Numbered from the stretch's first letter, positions 56,955 through 64,000 are shown. The stretch is DNA of 64,000 bases from Robinsoniella peoriensis (GCF_000797495.1 NZ_JTGN01000001.1:317501-381500), one strand, 5' to 3'. Made by a program: numbers and translations. Notes: a model not told the origin generated them from the letters alone.

Positions 56955-57143
56955 TTATCTTCCTCCTTCAGTAAAAGCAGAACCTTCCGCCTGACCCAAA
57001 TGGACAATGGTACTTGCATGCAGTGAGATGCCATGCTCCTCAATCAGCTTCTTAACTGTTTCCAGTATGAAATCCACTCCCAGTGAATCACTGAGCACAA
57101 AATCAAAAAGATGCCTTAGAAACGTCACAAAATACGCAGCGCC
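56955..57143 (-). pseudogene. IS3-type transposase fragment (DDE domain scar)
   Basis: The minus frame reads about 62 residues including RHLFDFVLSDSLGVDF then ILETVKKLIEEHGISLHAST and IVHLGQAEGSAF, ended by a stop. This aligns by eye with the middle of IS3/IS150-type OrfB, where the same place normally reads IHSDQG; here the D and Q of SDQG are altered. No start, no inverted repeats found. It lies directly next to the stop of the InlB-like gene. Confidence 0.6.
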
Positions 57144-57159
57144 TCAAAGACATCTCTGT

Positions 57160-58791
57160 TCAGTTCTTTGGTGTGCGGGGACCTCCCTTATAGGTAATGG
57201 TCACTGCAACATTTGCTATTTTAATATATCCGTTTTCATTGGGACTTCCTGAAGTTTCAAATTCCAGATTGCTGGGTGTGCCTACCAGTCTCAGATAACC
57301 GCTCACGGCAGGTGCCGGTTCCGACTCCGCCGGTACTCTGGATAGCAGCAGCGCCGTGGCCGGTGTACTTTGAACTGCATTTTCCCGGTTGAGCAGTATA
57401 TCAACCCCAGGTAACTCATAGGGCAGCGTCACTATATCAACCATAACATCCGCATTGGAATGATTGCAGACCGTAACTCTGTTATTACTGCCATCAAATC
57501 CGTGGGGCAGCCAGTCATACACAATGCTGGAATAGCGGTGTTCATCCGGATCCCACATCTTCCCGATCGAGTATTCAAATTCCATGCCGCCCCAGGTAAT
57601 ATCAACTTTATAAACGGCACCATCACCGCCTTCCAGTACTCTGGTCTGTACATCCAACTCGGCTGTTCCTCCCGATGTCAGCTGTGTGGTCTGATCCGGT
57701 AATATCTTACTGTTCCCCACAACGGCATAAGTAGACAGACGTCTCGTATGTATGGTAAGAATGGTTTCCCCGCTTTGACTGTCTTTTGCATACTCAAAGT
57801 ATTCGGTCTGGTCGGTAGGATCAGCCACCGGCCCGTCTGGAATCAACTCGGCTGCACCGTTGTGATAGCGGTATACTCTGTATCCGCTCCTTTGGCCAAT
57901 CTCCGGAGAAAGCGTAATCTGTACTTGCACGGTATTTGGTATCTGATTCAGCCCGGTTACGATTGCCTTACTGTCCGACTGTTTTTTTACCGATTTCGTC
58001 ACACTGAAATCATAAAACTTAATCACTTCTCCCTGAGCCAGTTGAATAATATCAGAAGCCCCCTCATCCAATTCTCCGGCATCACGGGCTGACATGGTCA
58101 GAATTATTTCATCACTATCCATATCGTCTGCCGTAACACCGTTTCTGGCATCCTCCACCTGCTGCTCATAGACCCTTCGCAAATCATTGCTGTCCATTAC
58201 AACCGTTTCTGTGGCATTATCCACAACCGTAACCTGTTTCGACCGGTTCCACGTAGCTGACAAAACGAGAGCTGTATCGTATGATACAGCACCTATAACC
58301 AGACCTTTTGATGCAGTCAGACTGTTGTTGATTCTCCATCCAAAGAACTCGTAACCTTCTCTGGCAGGATCTGATACTGCAGTGGTCTTTCCATAAGTAT
58401 GCGTAATAGGATTGTCTGTTCCAGAGGATGCCTGTTCCATATTTTCATATATTATCTTATAGGTTCTGACCTGCCACGCTGCATAGACAGCAGACGTCTC
58501 TAAAAAATCACAGGAATTTAGAGCCTTACCCGACTCATCATAATATCTTTTCCCCTGACCATTCGCCTTTTCATAATATCCCTGGAACGAATATCCTCGT
58601 CTGACCGGGATTTCTATTTGGGGCATGTTCTCTCCATATGGTACATAGATTTCTGATGTACCGGCTCCACCGCCCATAGGTCTTAGATAAATGTGCACAC
58701 GATTGTCACCTGCTGCCAATACAGTAACAGAGGTAAAAAAACACCCTGCTAAAATCAAAGCCAACGACAGCCGCCTGAAGTAGACTTTCAT
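57160..58791 (-). CDS. Secreted InlB-repeat protein with C-terminal WDP module
   Basis: A 543-residue exported protein. Signal peptide 1-26 (ends VTVLAAG). Residues about 32-185 have three Listeria-Bacteroides-type (InlB B) repeats, e.g. VRRGYSFQGYYEKANGQGKRYYD and AREGYEFFGW. A middle domain (about 190-370, VTVVDNATETVVMDSNDL..., RRLSTYAVVG) follows, then a C-terminal module (about 385-543) with YKVDITWGGMEFEY, MWDPDEHRYSS, VTVCNHSNADV and a closing SGSPNENGYIKIANVAVTITY. The latter two parts recur in the gene at 61953. No sortase signal. RBS AAAGGGG. Last gene of the surface cluster. Confidence 0.85.
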   Translation of the reverse strand: MKVYFRRLSLALILAGCFFTSVTVLAAGDNRVHIYLRPMGGGAGTSEIYVPYGENMPQIEIPVRRGYSFQGYYEKANGQGKRYYDESGKALNSCDFLETSAVYAAWQVRTYKIIYENMEQASSGTDNPITHTYGKTTAVSDPAREGYEFFGWRINNSLTASKGLVIGAVSYDTALVLSATWNRSKQVTVVDNATETVVMDSNDLRRVYEQQVEDARNGVTADDMDSDEIILTMSARDAGELDEGASDIIQLAQGEVIKFYDFSVTKSVKKQSDSKAIVTGLNQIPNTVQVQITLSPEIGQRSGYRVYRYHNGAAELIPDGPVADPTDQTEYFEYAKDSQSGETILTIHTRRLSTYAVVGNSKILPDQTTQLTSGGTAELDVQTRVLEGGDGAVYKVDITWGGMEFEYSIGKMWDPDEHRYSSIVYDWLPHGFDGSNNRVTVCNHSNADVMVDIVTLPYELPGVDILLNRENAVQSTPATALLLSRVPAESEPAPAVSGYLRLVGTPSNLEFETSGSPNENGYIKIANVAVTITYKGGPRTPKN

Positions 58792-58812
58792 AGGATTCCC
58801 CTTTCTTGCTGT

Positions 58813-59334
58813 TTACCATGGCTGCAGTGTATTACCCAGAGAAATCACTCCCTTACTATAATAAGTTTCTGGTTCATAAGCATATACTTTTACATCCACT
58901 TCAATCGCTTCATTTTTTATTTTCTTTATAGGATCCAGCCGTTCCAGATAATAGCCCGGCTGAATCAGTCCGCTTTTATAAAGCACCTCACCATTTTTAT
59001 CTACAATTTCACACAGCAGATTGACCCCGCTGTCTTCCGGATTGGTCAGATACTGCAGCACCGTTCCGTCTTCCTGCTGAAACAGGGTTCCCGATATATA
59101 AAATTTGAATGCCTGTGGAGCTTCGATTCCTCCGTAACTCATGTTGTTAGGAGGTGCCGGCACCCCTGCCTGAGCCGCCGGATCAAAATCCGGCGGAACA
59201 AAAACGGGCTTGTAGTTTCGGTTATAAACAACCACTCCTATGCATAAAAGAACCAGCACAATAAGGCTGATTTTAATTATTTTGTTTTGAATATGTCTTG
59301 TTTTTGGTCGTAAAGCCTGTTCACGCATTTTCAT
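58813..59334 (-). CDS. Single-pass membrane protein with a beta-rich ectodomain
   Basis: A 173-residue protein: basic start, one membrane helix (about 22-41, IKISLIVLVLLCIGVVVY), a Pro-rich stalk (45-70) and an outer domain. That domain has NPEDSGVNLLCEIVDKNGEVLY then KSGLIQPGYYLERLDPI, which matches the C-terminal part of the protein at 60439 (NPGNSNHNIVIQLQF, ESGAIQIGYQLENLRL). The shared NP-x-x-S, SG-x-I-x-x-GY-x-LE-x-L pattern suggests both bind the same partner. GAGGGGGG precedes the ATG. Function unknown; the neighbour genes suggest part of a surface structure. Confidence 0.75.
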   Translation of the reverse strand: MKMREQALRPKTRHIQNKIIKISLIVLVLLCIGVVVYNRNYKPVFVPPDFDPAAQAGVPAPPNNMSYGGIEAPQAFKFYISGTLFQQEDGTVLQYLTNPEDSGVNLLCEIVDKNGEVLYKSGLIQPGYYLERLDPIKKIKNEAIEVDVKVYAYEPETYYSKGVISLGNTLQPW

Positions 59335-59410
59335 CCCGTCCCCCCTCTCTTATGCTGCTTTGCTCTATTCGCTTTTATAAATGCACTGCTGCCACCGACA
59401 ATGCCCTTAT

Positions 59411-59439
59411 AAAAACGGGCCCCGACTCTTGCCGGAGCC
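59411..59439 (-). terminator. Terminator-like hairpin in a 280-base leader
   Basis: GGCTCCG/CGGGGCC stem with 8-base loop, followed by CGTTTTT. It lies between the secreted protein gene (59617) and the membrane protein gene (58813). The region upstream (59440-59560) has further stems, e.g. CCTG-TGA-CAGG and AGCG-GCATA-CGCT. Confidence 0.6.
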
Positions 59440-59616
59440 ATGCCCTTATTGCAGCTAATATCCCTATACTTTGTCACGCCTTCCCTGTCACAGGCAGCGT
59501 ATGCCGCTTTCGTTCTCACGCCGTCCAATACGCAAGAGGGAAAGCAGTGCTAAAGCACGTTTAAAATATGATCATATTAAAGGCAAACGTTCTTTTATAC
59601 ATACTATATCGTTTGT

Positions 59617-60411
59617 TTACGGAACCTGTGCTGGTGTGGGAGCGATGGTAACCGTGATCACGCCAACCTTCTTGAAATTATCAAGTTCTGCACCTTTGCC
59701 CTCATCCGGTGTTCCGCTGAATGCAAAATATGCTTCGGCCTTTGTCTCTGTACCTGCTGCAGCTGATCCACTGTTGTCAGCAGTTGGAAGCTGAACCTTA
59801 TCAATGCTGTTTGTTACTGCAGACACTGTTCCAGCACTATAGGTGCCAGTCAATTTTTGGGAAGCGGTAACTGCATTTGCATTTGTAGCAAAGAAATTAC
59901 CTACAACTGCATTGTCACTTATAGAGCTGGCATTAAATGGTGTTCCTGCAAGTGAAAAAGCAAGTCCTGCATCAATACCTCCATTAGAGTGATTGGTTAT
60001 ATCCAGTTTATTGTTCGTCCCATCAAGATATCCTGTCTCAGTCCACTCAGCCTGACCTGCCCCGCCGTTATATGTATGAGTGTCTGGATCCCAAACTCCG
60101 CTTCCGCTGGTGTACTCAAACTTCATAGCTCCCCAAGCCAAATCAACTTTGTAAACAATGGTCCCTTTATCCGTTACTTTAGCCCATACATTAATGTCGG
60201 TATTGTCAGCTGCTTCACCGTCAAAACCGTCATCCGTCGTAAAGTCAGCAGCACCTGATGCTTTAGAAATTGTGCCTGCACCTGTACTTGCCCCTGCCTC
60301 ACCAGAACCTGCCGGAGAGGTGGCCTCTGCTCCTGTAGCTGCAAATGCAGTAATGCTCATAGAAGCTGTTAAACATGTAATAATTGCAATTTTTGCTAAT
60401 TTTTTTAACAT
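59617..60411 (-). CDS. Secreted protein with WDP module, small
   Basis: A 264-residue exported protein. Signal peptide 1-25 (SMSITAFAA) then a Gly/Ala/Ser/Thr linker (26-70) and one copy of the module shared with the genes at 57160 and 61953: YKVDLAWGAMKFEYTS, WDPDTHTYN, LDITNHSNGGIDAG and the end SGTPDEG ... KVGVITVTI. With little else in it, it could be the structural subunit, with the InlB proteins as larger relatives. AGGAGGAA precedes the ATG. 27 bases after the gene at 60439. Confidence 0.8.
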   Translation of the reverse strand: MLKKLAKIAIITCLTASMSITAFAATGAEATSPAGSGEAGASTGAGTISKASGAADFTTDDGFDGEAADNTDINVWAKVTDKGTIVYKVDLAWGAMKFEYTSGSGVWDPDTHTYNGGAGQAEWTETGYLDGTNNKLDITNHSNGGIDAGLAFSLAGTPFNASSISDNAVVGNFFATNANAVTASQKLTGTYSAGTVSAVTNSIDKVQLPTADNSGSAAAGTETKAEAYFAFSGTPDEGKGAELDNFKKVGVITVTIAPTPAQVP

Positions 60412-60438
60412 AATGATTCCTCCTAAATAAATTTAATT

Positions 60439-61917
60439 TTAGTGGACGGATATGACAACTGGAAGCTGCGATTCCAGCATTGCCCGTTCGTTGGTTTCGA
60501 TGTCATAAAACATCAGATACACTATCGCGTTATATTCTCCTGGCGGGATAGCTGCGCCGTTTGGTTGTTCTACAAGCCTGAGGTTTTCAAGCTGATACCC
60601 GATCTGGATGGCACCCGATTCCGCAATAATCATGCGGTTAACTGCCGGGTCATAGTCAGGATTATCATCTAATTTCTTTTGGTCTTCCTCAGACCTGCCG
60701 GTACTGCCCATAATACGAATCGCCTGCTCATCGGTAAACTGCAGTTGGATCACAATATTGTGATTGGAGTTACCCGGATTCTTGAATCCGAATTTACATA
60801 GCCCCGTAGCAAGGTCTACATCTATATGTTCTTCAAACTGGAAAGACGCAAAATTTCCATCTGCATTAGGCTCAATGGTTTCTCCCGGTATGGGATCCTG
60901 GTCTGGATCATATGGTACCGGAGCAAAACTTGGTAAAATGATTGGATTCTTAATGAAGAATAACAGGAAAAGCAGAAGCAGTAAAACTGGCAATCCGAAA
61001 ATCCATGGAATCACAAGAAAGGTAATCTTTCCCGCTGCATAGCTGTGGAAAATTCTGCCGCTGTTTCTTCCTGCGAGACCACCGTAGCTTCCCTTTTTGC
61101 CGCTGAGCTCTATGATTGCGGCACAACAGCCGATAACAGCATCAGCCTCACATATTGCGGCGATACCGCCTGCCACATTCCCACCCTTGATATGGCAGTC
61201 CACTGTGAGGTTATACACCTCTCCATTTAGAAATCCAAAAAATCCTTTATTTTCTGTCTCTTTGCTTTTTATTACAAAGTTTTTGACGGTATATCCGGCA
61301 CCGTCAAACACCCCATGGAATGGTAAAGTTCGTTCTCTGCCTATGGGTGTCCATTCCCTGCCACCCAGATCAATATCGTTGATCAGTTGGATATAGGCCG
61401 AAGCCAGCGCTCTATCTCCCTCATTGATTTTTTTTGCCAAATCAAAAAGTTCTTCCGGTGTGGATATTTTTACAATATCTTCAGCCGTCGTTGTTGACTG
61501 GGCTACCTCATAGAACCAATGCTCTGCCTGGAAGCGAAGGAGCGGTTCCGCTCCTGTATACTCCCATACAACTTCGGTATCAAATCCAAGCTCCTGTGCT
61601 TCTTTTTCACTTTGTACGGTTTTCAGCCGCTGACCGTGGTGAGGATCACATAACTTTTGCAGCTTTTTGCTGCCCTCTTTTTCACTGTGAAAAAAATAGC
61701 AGGAATCCTCAGCATTGTTGTTGCCTGAAAAACCACCTGTCATGGTTTTATTGATTTTACACATAGCCAGGCTTTTTCGAATTATACCTGCATTTTCCCC
61801 TGCAAAACCTGCACTCATCTGCTTTTTTGCATTGAGTTTTATATAACTGTAAGAATTTTCAATCGTCCCGTTGTTAAACGCAGCAAACCCACCAACGTAA
61901 CCGGTGTTTTTTTGCAT
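60439..61917 (-). CDS. GLUG-repeat membrane protein with beta ectodomain
   Basis: A 492-residue protein. Residues 1-75 and about 225-300 have GLUG-type repeats (VGGFAAFNNGTIENSYSY, NVAGGIAAICEADAVIGC, YGGLAGRNSGRIFHSYA), as in bacterial adhesins. A membrane helix (about 303-325, FLVIPWIFGLPVLLLLLFLLFF) follows, then a Pro-rich stalk and a 140-residue ectodomain similar to that of the 58813 product. There is no signal peptide, so the GLUG part should be inside the cell if the helix is a plain signal anchor, which is odd for this repeat type. GAGAGGTG precedes the ATG. Confidence 0.75.
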   Translation of the reverse strand: MQKNTGYVGGFAAFNNGTIENSYSYIKLNAKKQMSAGFAGENAGIIRKSLAMCKINKTMTGGFSGNNNAEDSCYFFHSEKEGSKKLQKLCDPHHGQRLKTVQSEKEAQELGFDTEVVWEYTGAEPLLRFQAEHWFYEVAQSTTTAEDIVKISTPEELFDLAKKINEGDRALASAYIQLINDIDLGGREWTPIGRERTLPFHGVFDGAGYTVKNFVIKSKETENKGFFGFLNGEVYNLTVDCHIKGGNVAGGIAAICEADAVIGCCAAIIELSGKKGSYGGLAGRNSGRIFHSYAAGKITFLVIPWIFGLPVLLLLLFLLFFIKNPIILPSFAPVPYDPDQDPIPGETIEPNADGNFASFQFEEHIDVDLATGLCKFGFKNPGNSNHNIVIQLQFTDEQAIRIMGSTGRSEEDQKKLDDNPDYDPAVNRMIIAESGAIQIGYQLENLRLVEQPNGAAIPPGEYNAIVYLMFYDIETNERAMLESQLPVVISVH

Positions 61918-61952
61918 TTTTTCACCTCTCCATTATATTATAGTAAATCCTT

Positions 61953-64000
61953 TTAGCTCTTGGGAGTCAACCCGCCGCTTTCATCCGGTGTAACTGTCAT
62001 AGTGATTACACCCACTTTAGTAATCGTTGTTTCCTGCCCGGTTGCCGGTGTTCCTCCCGGAAGATTTTGTGGTGTACCTGACAACCAAAGATATGTATCA
62101 ACACTGGATGGCGTTGCATTTTCTGCTGCAACTTTGGGAATATAATACGGGTTTACTGCATCACTGGTGTCAGCATTAACAGCTTTAAACTTTACATCCA
62201 CTCCCTCCAGCTGCCCTGTCTCCTTCACTATGGTAAAGTTTGCAAAAACATCTGCGTTAGAGTGATTTGTGGTTGTGATTTTGTTGTTTCCATTCAGAAA
62301 ACTCTCATCCGACCATTTGTAGGAAGCTCCGGTATACATATGGTTATAAGGATCCCACTCTTTTGCTATGGTAAAATCAAACACCATACTTCCCCATGAA
62401 ATATCCATTTTGTAGACTGCCTCCAGACCTTTTTGTGAAATACGTCCCTGGACATCAATGTCAGAAGTGGCATCAGCCATATTACCGTTGTAGGAAGGAG
62501 ACGGAGTCATAACCTTTTCTCCTGCAGCAATGGCAAAGGTGGAAAACATCCGGGTATAAACAATGAGATTTCCATTTTCTATAGTATAGTACTCACTGTC
62601 TCTTGGATCACTGCTGATCTGATGAATCTCCTCAACCGGATTGTTTTTATCCATGAAAGTGTGATAACGGAAAACCGAATAACTGGCCTTATCTGCCAAC
62701 TCTCCGGTAAGCGGAATGGAAACTGCAATCCGCACCGGTATTTCTTTCAGGGTCGTTGTTGTCGGTGTCCCACTCAGAGATGTAATGGTTTTTTCCACTT
62801 TTGCATCGAAAAACTTCACGATCTCTCCCTGGGCTGCCTCTTTGATTTGTGTCTCTCCCGCAGGACTGCCAACGGTATTTGTTACCTTGAGGGTCAGTTT
62901 CACAGATGCATTGTTTGACATTTCATCTGAAGTCACTCCCGCAGCAGCATCGGTAACAGGATTTTCAAAGACTTTGTTTAGATCTGCTTTATTTTCCGAG
63001 GTATTGGCCTGCAAATCCACTGTATCCTCAATTGATACATCCGTTTGTTTTTTCCAGTTTGCTGTCAGTGTAATATTATTTGTGTAGGAAGTTGCACCCA
63101 ACACCAGATTTCGGTTCAGCGTATTTTGTCCGTTAACGGACCAGCCCATAAAGGTGTGCTCAGTTTTAGTTGGATCTGAAACAGTGGTTGCCTGCCCATA
63201 AGTATGCGTGCCAGGCTTACTGGAACCATAAGCCGCTCCACTCATTCCCTCATAAGTAATGTTGAACTGTTTTGGTATCCAGCGGGCATACAAGGTAAGA
63301 TTTCCTGACATGGCCGTGGCTGTGTTTCGTGCACCTGTGCTGGTATAATACTGGTTTCCCCCTGAGGACGCAGTGTAATATCCAGTAAAGTCATAACCGT
63401 CTCTTTTAGGCGGGGTAACTGAACCCGGAAGAGAAGCTCCGCTGGTTACCGTAGCCGTGGTATTTGCAACTCCCTGATTGTTAAAAGTAAGTGTATACAC
63501 ATTTTGCTGCCACTGGGCATACAAGGTTCCATTGTAATTGCCGCTTCGGATGTAGCCGTTGCTGTCAATCATCCGGGTTCCGCCAGATGTTTGATTATAA
63601 AATCCGGTAAAAGTGTAACCGGACCTGGTGGGCGGGGTAATATAATTGGTGGAAGATGAGGAATTTGTATACAGCCAGTATGCAACATTGTTGTAATAGT
63701 AGTTCGATCCTCCTGATCCTCCATTTTTATTTAATGTTACCGTATTATAACTAGGGCCATCAATAAGAAAATTGTATGTAGTTTGAGCGGAACTGTATTT
63801 TGATGCAAAGCAATAGTAAGTCTGTCCTGCATAACATAAATATGACAGACTAAAATCCCTTCCACCGCCACTGTCATCATTATATACGAGGCTGTTATCC
63901 CTGGCGGTATCATTCCTATACCCGGTACTCGCAAGAGCATTGTACACTGAATTGTAACCGCTGGAATTCGTCAGATAAAAATATGGATCACCTTCCGTAT
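61953..64000 (-). CDS. Large InlB-repeat surface protein with WDP module (5' end outside window)
   Basis: At least 682 residues, open to the window edge, so the signal peptide is missing. Several InlB-type repeats run from the start to about residue 300 (SGYTFTGFYNQTSGGTRMIDSNG, RDGYDFTGYYTASSGGNQYYTSTGA, TEHTFMGWSVNGQ). Then comes the same middle domain as in the 57160 product (DTVDLQANTSENKADLNKVFENPVTDAAAGVTSDEM; MFSTFAIAAGEKV) and the WDP module (YKMDISWGSMVFDFTIAKEWDPYNHMYTG, TTTNHSNADVFANF). Ends LTPKS, without sortase motif. First seen gene of the surface cluster. Confidence 0.85.
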   Translation of the reverse strand, partial: TEGDPYFYLTNSSGYNSVYNALASTGYRNDTARDNSLVYNDDSGGGRDFSLSYLCYAGQTYYCFASKYSSAQTTYNFLIDGPSYNTVTLNKNGGSGGSNYYYNNVAYWLYTNSSSSTNYITPPTRSGYTFTGFYNQTSGGTRMIDSNGYIRSGNYNGTLYAQWQQNVYTLTFNNQGVANTTATVTSGASLPGSVTPPKRDGYDFTGYYTASSGGNQYYTSTGARNTATAMSGNLTLYARWIPKQFNITYEGMSGAAYGSSKPGTHTYGQATTVSDPTKTEHTFMGWSVNGQNTLNRNLVLGATSYTNNITLTANWKKQTDVSIEDTVDLQANTSENKADLNKVFENPVTDAAAGVTSDEMSNNASVKLTLKVTNTVGSPAGETQIKEAAQGEIVKFFDAKVEKTITSLSGTPTTTTLKEIPVRIAVSIPLTGELADKASYSVFRYHTFMDKNNPVEEIHQISSDPRDSEYYTIENGNLIVYTRMFSTFAIAAGEKVMTPSPSYNGNMADATSDIDVQGRISQKGLEAVYKMDISWGSMVFDFTIAKEWDPYNHMYTGASYKWSDESFLNGNNKITTTNHSNADVFANFTIVKETGQLEGVDVKFKAVNADTSDAVNPYYIPKVAAENATPSSVDTYLWLSGTPQNLPGGTPATGQETTITKVGVITMTVTPDESGGLTPKS

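Follow-up and report, generated by a model that had tools for sequence, protein, structure and literature searches.

How might exported proteins that carry no wall anchor be held at the cell surface? The question is raised by a five-gene operon at the end of a 64,000-nucleotide stretch of DNA from Robinsoniella peoriensis (G000:C22:317501-381500), here termed the window, within a genome of 7.39 Mb (G000). Three of the encoded proteins are exported and share one module (WDP), and the remaining two are membrane proteins that share an ectodomain (ECTO). The gene set is undescribed: neither module is represented in Pfam or NCBIfam, and no description of such a set was found in the literature.

Gene content and shared modules

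The five genes all lie on the minus strand, exactly where the original prediction had placed them (Table 1). In the 5' to 3' order of the operon, they encode an InlB-repeat protein at either end (754 aa first, 543 aa last) and, between these, a secreted protein of 264 aa preceded by a membrane protein of 492 aa and followed by one of 173 aa. They are tightly spaced, with intergenic gaps of 22-35 nt, the exception being a gap of 282 nt after the 264-aa gene. Past the operon, a short open fragment (56955-57101, minus strand) resembles a transposase remnant by eye and has no Pfam match. A plasmid origin of the stretch was also considered and set aside, a nucleotide search among plasmids having given no match.

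Table 1. Features of the operon and its surroundings, numbered from the first nucleotide of the window.
Feature	Position	Strand	Remarks
754-aa exported protein: signal peptide, three InlB B-type repeats, middle domain, C-terminal WDP (~61956-62468)	61953..64000	(-)	gene start 217 bases past the window end; full gene L002:3454-5718
492-aa type-A membrane protein: GLUG-like N-terminal part, transmembrane helix (~residues 294-331), ectodomain (~60439-60885)	60439..61917	(-)	
GLUG-like region of the type-A protein	60885-61917	(-)	
264-aa small WDP protein: signal peptide, flexible N-terminal tail, WDP (~59632-60204)	59617..60411	(-)	
Strand motif DINVWAKV (family pattern D-V-x-A-x-Y), directly before WDP of the 264-aa protein	60175..60198	(-)	unstructured in monomer model
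97-nt structured RNA element in the gap 3' of the small WDP gene	59466..59562	(-)	conserved in G015, same place
Terminator-like hairpin, then CGTTTTTATA, between the small WDP and type-B genes	59418..59439	(-)	
173-aa type-B membrane protein: N-in signal anchor (helix 13-40), linker FVPPDFD, Ig-like ectodomain (~58813-59136)	58813..59334	(-)	
543-aa exported protein: signal peptide, InlB B-type repeats, C-terminal WDP (~57163-57666)	57160..58791	(-)	

The module predicted for the three exported proteins is indeed common to them, with 34 invariant columns and 29-35% identity to the copy in the 264-aa protein. Just these three copies match within the genome (E 1e-66 to 1e-88); the next match (E 0.1, contig C5) sits in a glycosidase-like protein and was dismissed as chance. 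The predicted lack of a wall anchor also stands, given that the exported proteins have no LPXTG-like tail and that no known wall-binding domain was found in the operon proteins. Searches with the three proteins and 22 aligned members gave no Pfam or NCBIfam family for WDP, nor was one obtained for ECTO, scattered single-member matches being at chance level or confined to transmembrane or signal segments; no sequence in the PDB is a convincing relative of either. In both the window and relatives, large WDP proteins carry varied passengers ahead of the module, including InlB repeats, BspA-type LRR and a metallophosphatase. Because a single C-terminal module bears different passengers in large proteins and stands alone in small ones, WDP appears to behave like a docking module. 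A structure model of the 264-aa protein is of moderate quality (mean pLDDT 60; core about 70-88) and depicts an Ig-like domain, matching CEP192, Major sperm protein, integrin and pilin domains with Z up to 6.4, values that may mean no more than a common arrangement by the tool's own calibration. TasA was also among the Foldseek matches (E 0.29, probability 0.06), at a level that is not usable.

The prediction that the two membrane proteins of the operon share an ectodomain (NPxxS...SGxIxxGYxLExL) likewise held: the similarity between the 492- and 173-aa proteins is weak in pairwise comparison (phmmer E 2.5e-4 in a tiny database) and solid after relatives are added. Sister ECTO copies exist elsewhere in the genome. 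The model of the 173-aa protein (type B) is confident (pLDDT 89.8) and comprises one membrane helix and an Ig-like sandwich; its best matches are GbpA domain 3 (Z 7.9, rmsd 2.9, 93 residues) and glycosidase Ig domains, with the PapD-like chaperones FimC and DraB slightly lower (Z 6.4-6.5) and tied with unrelated Ig folds. In the 492-aa protein (type A) and its counterparts in G015, G026 and G054, the N-terminus consists of GLUG-like repeats, lacks a signal peptide and ends at the membrane helix. This part is probably cytoplasmic, since other ECTO proteins have short basic N-in signal anchors; the charges flanking the type-A helix fit neither side decisively. A cytoplasmic location is unusual for GLUG repeats.

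Conservation among relatives

Co-occurrence of the two modules, which the original prediction had proposed to follow by profile search, proved to be one-sided. In a sample of 299 genomes of the same family (Lachnospiraceae), WDP is present in 10 and ECTO in 50. An ECTO gene lies within the WDP locus in eight of the 10 WDP genomes by a strict profile, and in all 10 by a refined profile built on the fetched loci; conversely, 42 of the 50 ECTO genomes lack WDP in the first strict scan. Thus, WDP is always accompanied by ECTO in this sample, whereas ECTO mostly occurs without WDP. An independent scan of eleven named contigs, at least two of them identical to contigs of sampled genomes, agrees with the family sample except for the near-identical contigs L019 and L021, on which a small WDP gene lacks a neighbouring ECTO gene. 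Outside Lachnospiraceae, WDP hardly occurs: among the matches listed, in which weak matches may be missed, it occurs in one extra genome of 291 class-wide and in none of 397 other genomes of a phylum sample (398 including that of R. peoriensis).

The order of the genes is also conserved. In about ten independent loci, each with one type-A and one type-B gene, a large WDP gene is usually followed by the type-A ECTO gene, one to four small WDP genes, the type-B ECTO gene and then a gene for a protein with an LPXTG-like tail or choline-binding repeats; such anchor-type proteins close the locus in several relatives. In G000 and G015, this last slot is taken by a second InlB-WDP protein instead. 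Maximum-likelihood analysis places WDP-linked type A in one clade (14 rows, 100/97) and type B in another (13 rows, 100/100). Conservation of the gene set supports the view that the two modules belong together and that types A and B of the membrane proteins make up an invariant pair. Independent adhesins and membrane proteins that share an operon by chance would accord with the genomic basis on which a WDP-ECTO interaction is proposed; they are nevertheless a very improbable explanation, considering that linkage and order are maintained across genera and that two ECTO clades are co-inherited. Individual loci vary. In L105 (G101:C8:41000-60999), a single type-A ECTO gene is surrounded by eight small WDP paralogues, of which several lack the DVxAxY motif described below. 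In G145, the WDP locus is adjoined by a gene (L110:6417-8585, minus strand) whose product combines a Mac-1 family domain (PF09028, E 7e-71) with an LPXTG-like tail.

Where WDP is absent, ECTO genes adjoin those of other small secreted proteins in 24 of 29 loci (by a loose heuristic), many of them with a VxVPT motif. In a sister locus of the R. peoriensis genome (L012, G000:C19:276000-295000), four ECTO genes are joined by genes for two small secreted proteins of VTVP type, a sortase (PF04203, E 2e-10), an IPKTG-tailed protein and, at the edge, a 2,173-aa protein; a lipoprotein resembling peptidyl-prolyl isomerases, a call made by eye, is also encoded there. At the third ECTO locus of this genome (L112, G000:C30:68000-87900), a pair of ECTO genes is accompanied by genes for a sortase (PF04203, E 6e-17), for two proteins of >1,100 aa with InlB repeats and for a small protein with a KTGD tail. 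Elsewhere, one small secreted ECTO neighbour (L098:9428-9922, minus strand), the only one of 31 partner proteins to do so, scores at the Pfam threshold for SCPU (E 1.4e-4), which is the pilin domain of archaic chaperone-usher pili. When the WDP profile was compared with those of the remaining small ECTO partners, a single weak match emerged (hhalign probability 34%; reversed control 2%), too weak to claim homology. Given that ECTO usually occurs without WDP, it seems to be a general partner for small secreted proteins of several kinds, with WDP as one of several client types, and it may serve a more general envelope role.

Proposed retention, relative abundance and assembly

Wall anchoring normally belongs to the gene set, as indicated by the sortase of the sister ECTO locus and by the LPXTG-like or choline-binding proteins that end several WDP loci. 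For the window operon, the original prediction had considered that a sortase or pilin operon just outside the window could explain anchoring; neither a sortase nor an LPXTG-like tail was found in the whole window and 14.4 kb beyond its end. Within the genome, sorting signals and sortase at ECTO loci are restricted to the sister loci on contigs C19 and C30. Hence, a sortase-assembled pilus with its sortase encoded elsewhere, for which the sortase and IPKTG protein among the ECTO genes of the same-genome sister locus could be cited, is barely plausible for the window operon and was rejected on the absence of both a nearby sortase and a sorting signal in the three WDP proteins. Because a second InlB-WDP protein fills the anchor slot, retention would instead depend on the two membrane proteins or on an anchor whose gene lies elsewhere.

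The 282 nt that separate the small WDP gene from the type-B gene fold much better than shuffled sequences do (z -4.9). Its 97-nt core has a counterpart in another genus (G015, L102:12076-12173), with an identity of 71%, comparable to that of coding genes. All 30 pairs of the core are kept between the two sequences, with three changed on both sides; this two-sequence covariation count is not significant by itself (69 of 500 shuffles reach it), and sliding the partners breaks the pairing. Terminator-like sites are no more numerous in this region than in shuffles, but the hairpin that follows the element in G000 has the most G-C pairs among them, and a stronger GC-rich hairpin follows the element in G015. 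Rfam contains no matching family at curated thresholds and nothing convincing at E up to 10, and no copies were found in 107 other genomes of the family. Attenuation favouring the small WDP gene would be the simplest reading, with the element and hairpin expected to raise its product above those of the downstream genes. Both are in keeping with the small protein as the most abundant component, and the 264-aa protein is the probable main subunit; small WDP genes are often multiplied in relatives.

Taken with some caution, the operon probably encodes a surface-display complex that works in the manner of csc/WxL clusters, without homology to WxL or WxLIP. In such a complex, WDP would serve as the docking or assembly domain. 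Small WDP proteins, mostly the bare module, would make up the bulk, and large WDP proteins would bear a passenger upstream of their C-terminal WDP, here InlB-type repeats with a probably adhesive role. The signal-anchored type-A and type-B proteins would expose Ig-like ectodomains on the outer side of the membrane, where they may receive secreted WDP proteins by direct binding, aid their folding or prevent their loss, and retain the complex at the cell. In most relatives, the final gene would provide the wall anchor. That the membrane pair may hold or assemble the secreted proteins is well supported by genomics. Several observations count against the complex as a whole, namely the small WDP genes of L019 and L021 without ECTO, the lack of a wall-anchor gene in the window operon, the prevalence of ECTO without WDP and the merely moderate WDP model.

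A motif ahead of the WDP module bears on how the proteins might assemble and is, together with weak fold matches, what speaks for the fibre or layer of the original prediction. DVxAxY is found before the module in 24 of the 33 small WDP proteins (vs 2.4 in shuffles), a count that measures conservation because the proteins are homologous and the occurrences not independent. The motif lies in the disordered tail of the 264-aa model (residues 72-79) and occurs in weaker form ahead of WDP in several large proteins. Similar starts (DVYAK or DVKGK) were noted after the fact in the LPXTG-like and choline-binding partners. By analogy with TasA (PMC9674648), DVxAxY possibly resembles a donor strand; equally, it may be the first strand of the domain, left unplaced by a shallow alignment. 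If it is a donor strand, small WDP proteins could be pilin-like Ig domains that lack one strand and polymerise by insertion of DVxAxY into the next subunit, with large WDP proteins as tip adhesins and ECTO proteins as PapD- or TapA-like chaperones and base. This fibre, a tentative and on balance unlikely alternative, would agree with the weaker form of the motif in several large proteins, the matches of WDP to pilin domains (PapG, CsuA/B and FimG; Z 4.8-6.0), those of ECTO to FimC and DraB, the SCPU match of one ECTO partner and the occurrence of such assembly in the Gram-positive TasA/TapA system (PMC9674648; PMC10151520). However, none of the fold matches is better than middling, unrelated Ig folds (Major sperm protein, integrin and glycosidases) occur among them, SCPU is matched by a single partner, and several small WDP proteins of G101 lack the motif. 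More doubtful still is a broader version, in which WDP and the other small ECTO partners would be incomplete Ig domains of a single-membrane chaperone-and-pilin-like system, forming donor-strand fibres without sortase, with paired, membrane-tethered, single-domain chaperones and exchangeable tips provided by large WDP proteins.

The ECTO proteins might alternatively serve as envelope sensors or as helpers of secretion, with a part in regulating or processing the locus instead of holding the surface complex; the cytoplasmic N-terminus of type A, whether GLUG or other, would then signal inward. Such a role, which is considered quite improbable, would suit the cytoplasmic-looking type-A N-termini without signal peptide (four with GLUG and two others) and the response regulator and histidine kinase genes that adjoin the operon upstream, beyond the window, relatives of the response regulator also adjoining the homologous loci of G015 and G026. 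Against this, the N-terminal tail of many type-A and almost all type-B proteins is too short to accommodate a signalling domain, and the two-component system is already present for sensing.

The surface-display complex remains the preferred reading, and its modules extend beyond this operon. ECTO is found in about one in six sampled genomes of the family, apparently as the constant partner of several unannotated small secreted families, which points to a class of surface structures of gut and soil bacteria now annotated as hypothetical. A defined WDP-ECTO pair allows adhesin retention without a sortase in the locus, as well as donor-strand assembly beyond TasA in Gram-positives, to be tested directly.

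Comparison with known systems

The InlB label of the original prediction is apt for the Listeria-Bacteroides B-type repeat and not for the rest of an internalin. The 754- and 543-aa proteins share PF09479 repeats with Listeria internalin B-type repeat proteins, but no leucine-rich repeat domain was found in the window proteins, which also differ in lacking GW domains and an LPXTG anchor and in using the repeats as one of several passengers. With chaperone-usher pili (PapD/FimC, Fim/Csu), there is a weak likeness of fold between ECTO and PapD-like chaperones and between WDP and pilin domains, and the layout of large WDP proteins recalls tip adhesins. Unlike these systems, neither an usher nor an outer membrane is expected here, the chaperones would be single-domain and membrane-tethered, and no WDP member matches the pilin domains of Pfam (Fimbrial, SCPU).

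The TasA/TapA fibres of Bacillus subtilis provide a Gram-positive precedent for a small beta-sandwich subunit whose N-terminal strand is detached and which assembles with the help of an Ig-fold partner (PMC9674648; PMC10151520). This plan of subunit, strand and Ig-like partner offers a possible analogy. The partner in the R. peoriensis system is, in contrast, membrane-anchored and paired, large passenger-bearing members are present, and neither the WDP proteins nor the 22 aligned members match the TasA family (camelysin) domain of Pfam.

The csc/WxL clusters combine a small module protein, large module proteins, a membrane Ig-like partner and an LPXTG protein (PMC1534035; PMC10599100), and a 2006 survey found no csc genes in clostridia (PMC1534035). 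WxL (PF13731) is absent from the R. peoriensis genome and from the 22 WDP members at E 0.5, while for WxLIP (DUF916-DUF3324) there is no PF06030 in the genome and no match to PF06030 or DUF3324 among 14 ECTO members; hhalign comparisons, made with shallow targets, were nil for both. Membership of a WxL cluster was rejected on these grounds. The partners differ as well, having an N-terminal signal anchor and two conserved types here, whereas WxLIP is C-terminally anchored and has two domains. The small LPXTG protein of csc type is absent from the window operon and has LPXTG-like or choline-binding counterparts in several relatives. In layout, the two systems nonetheless correspond, both having a small module-only protein, large proteins with a C-terminal module, a membrane-anchored Ig-like partner and, in relatives of the window operon, a small LPXTG-type protein. 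This analogy of layout (CscA-D), together with the lack of WxL and WxLIP, suggests that the operon works like a WxL cluster without being a member of that family.
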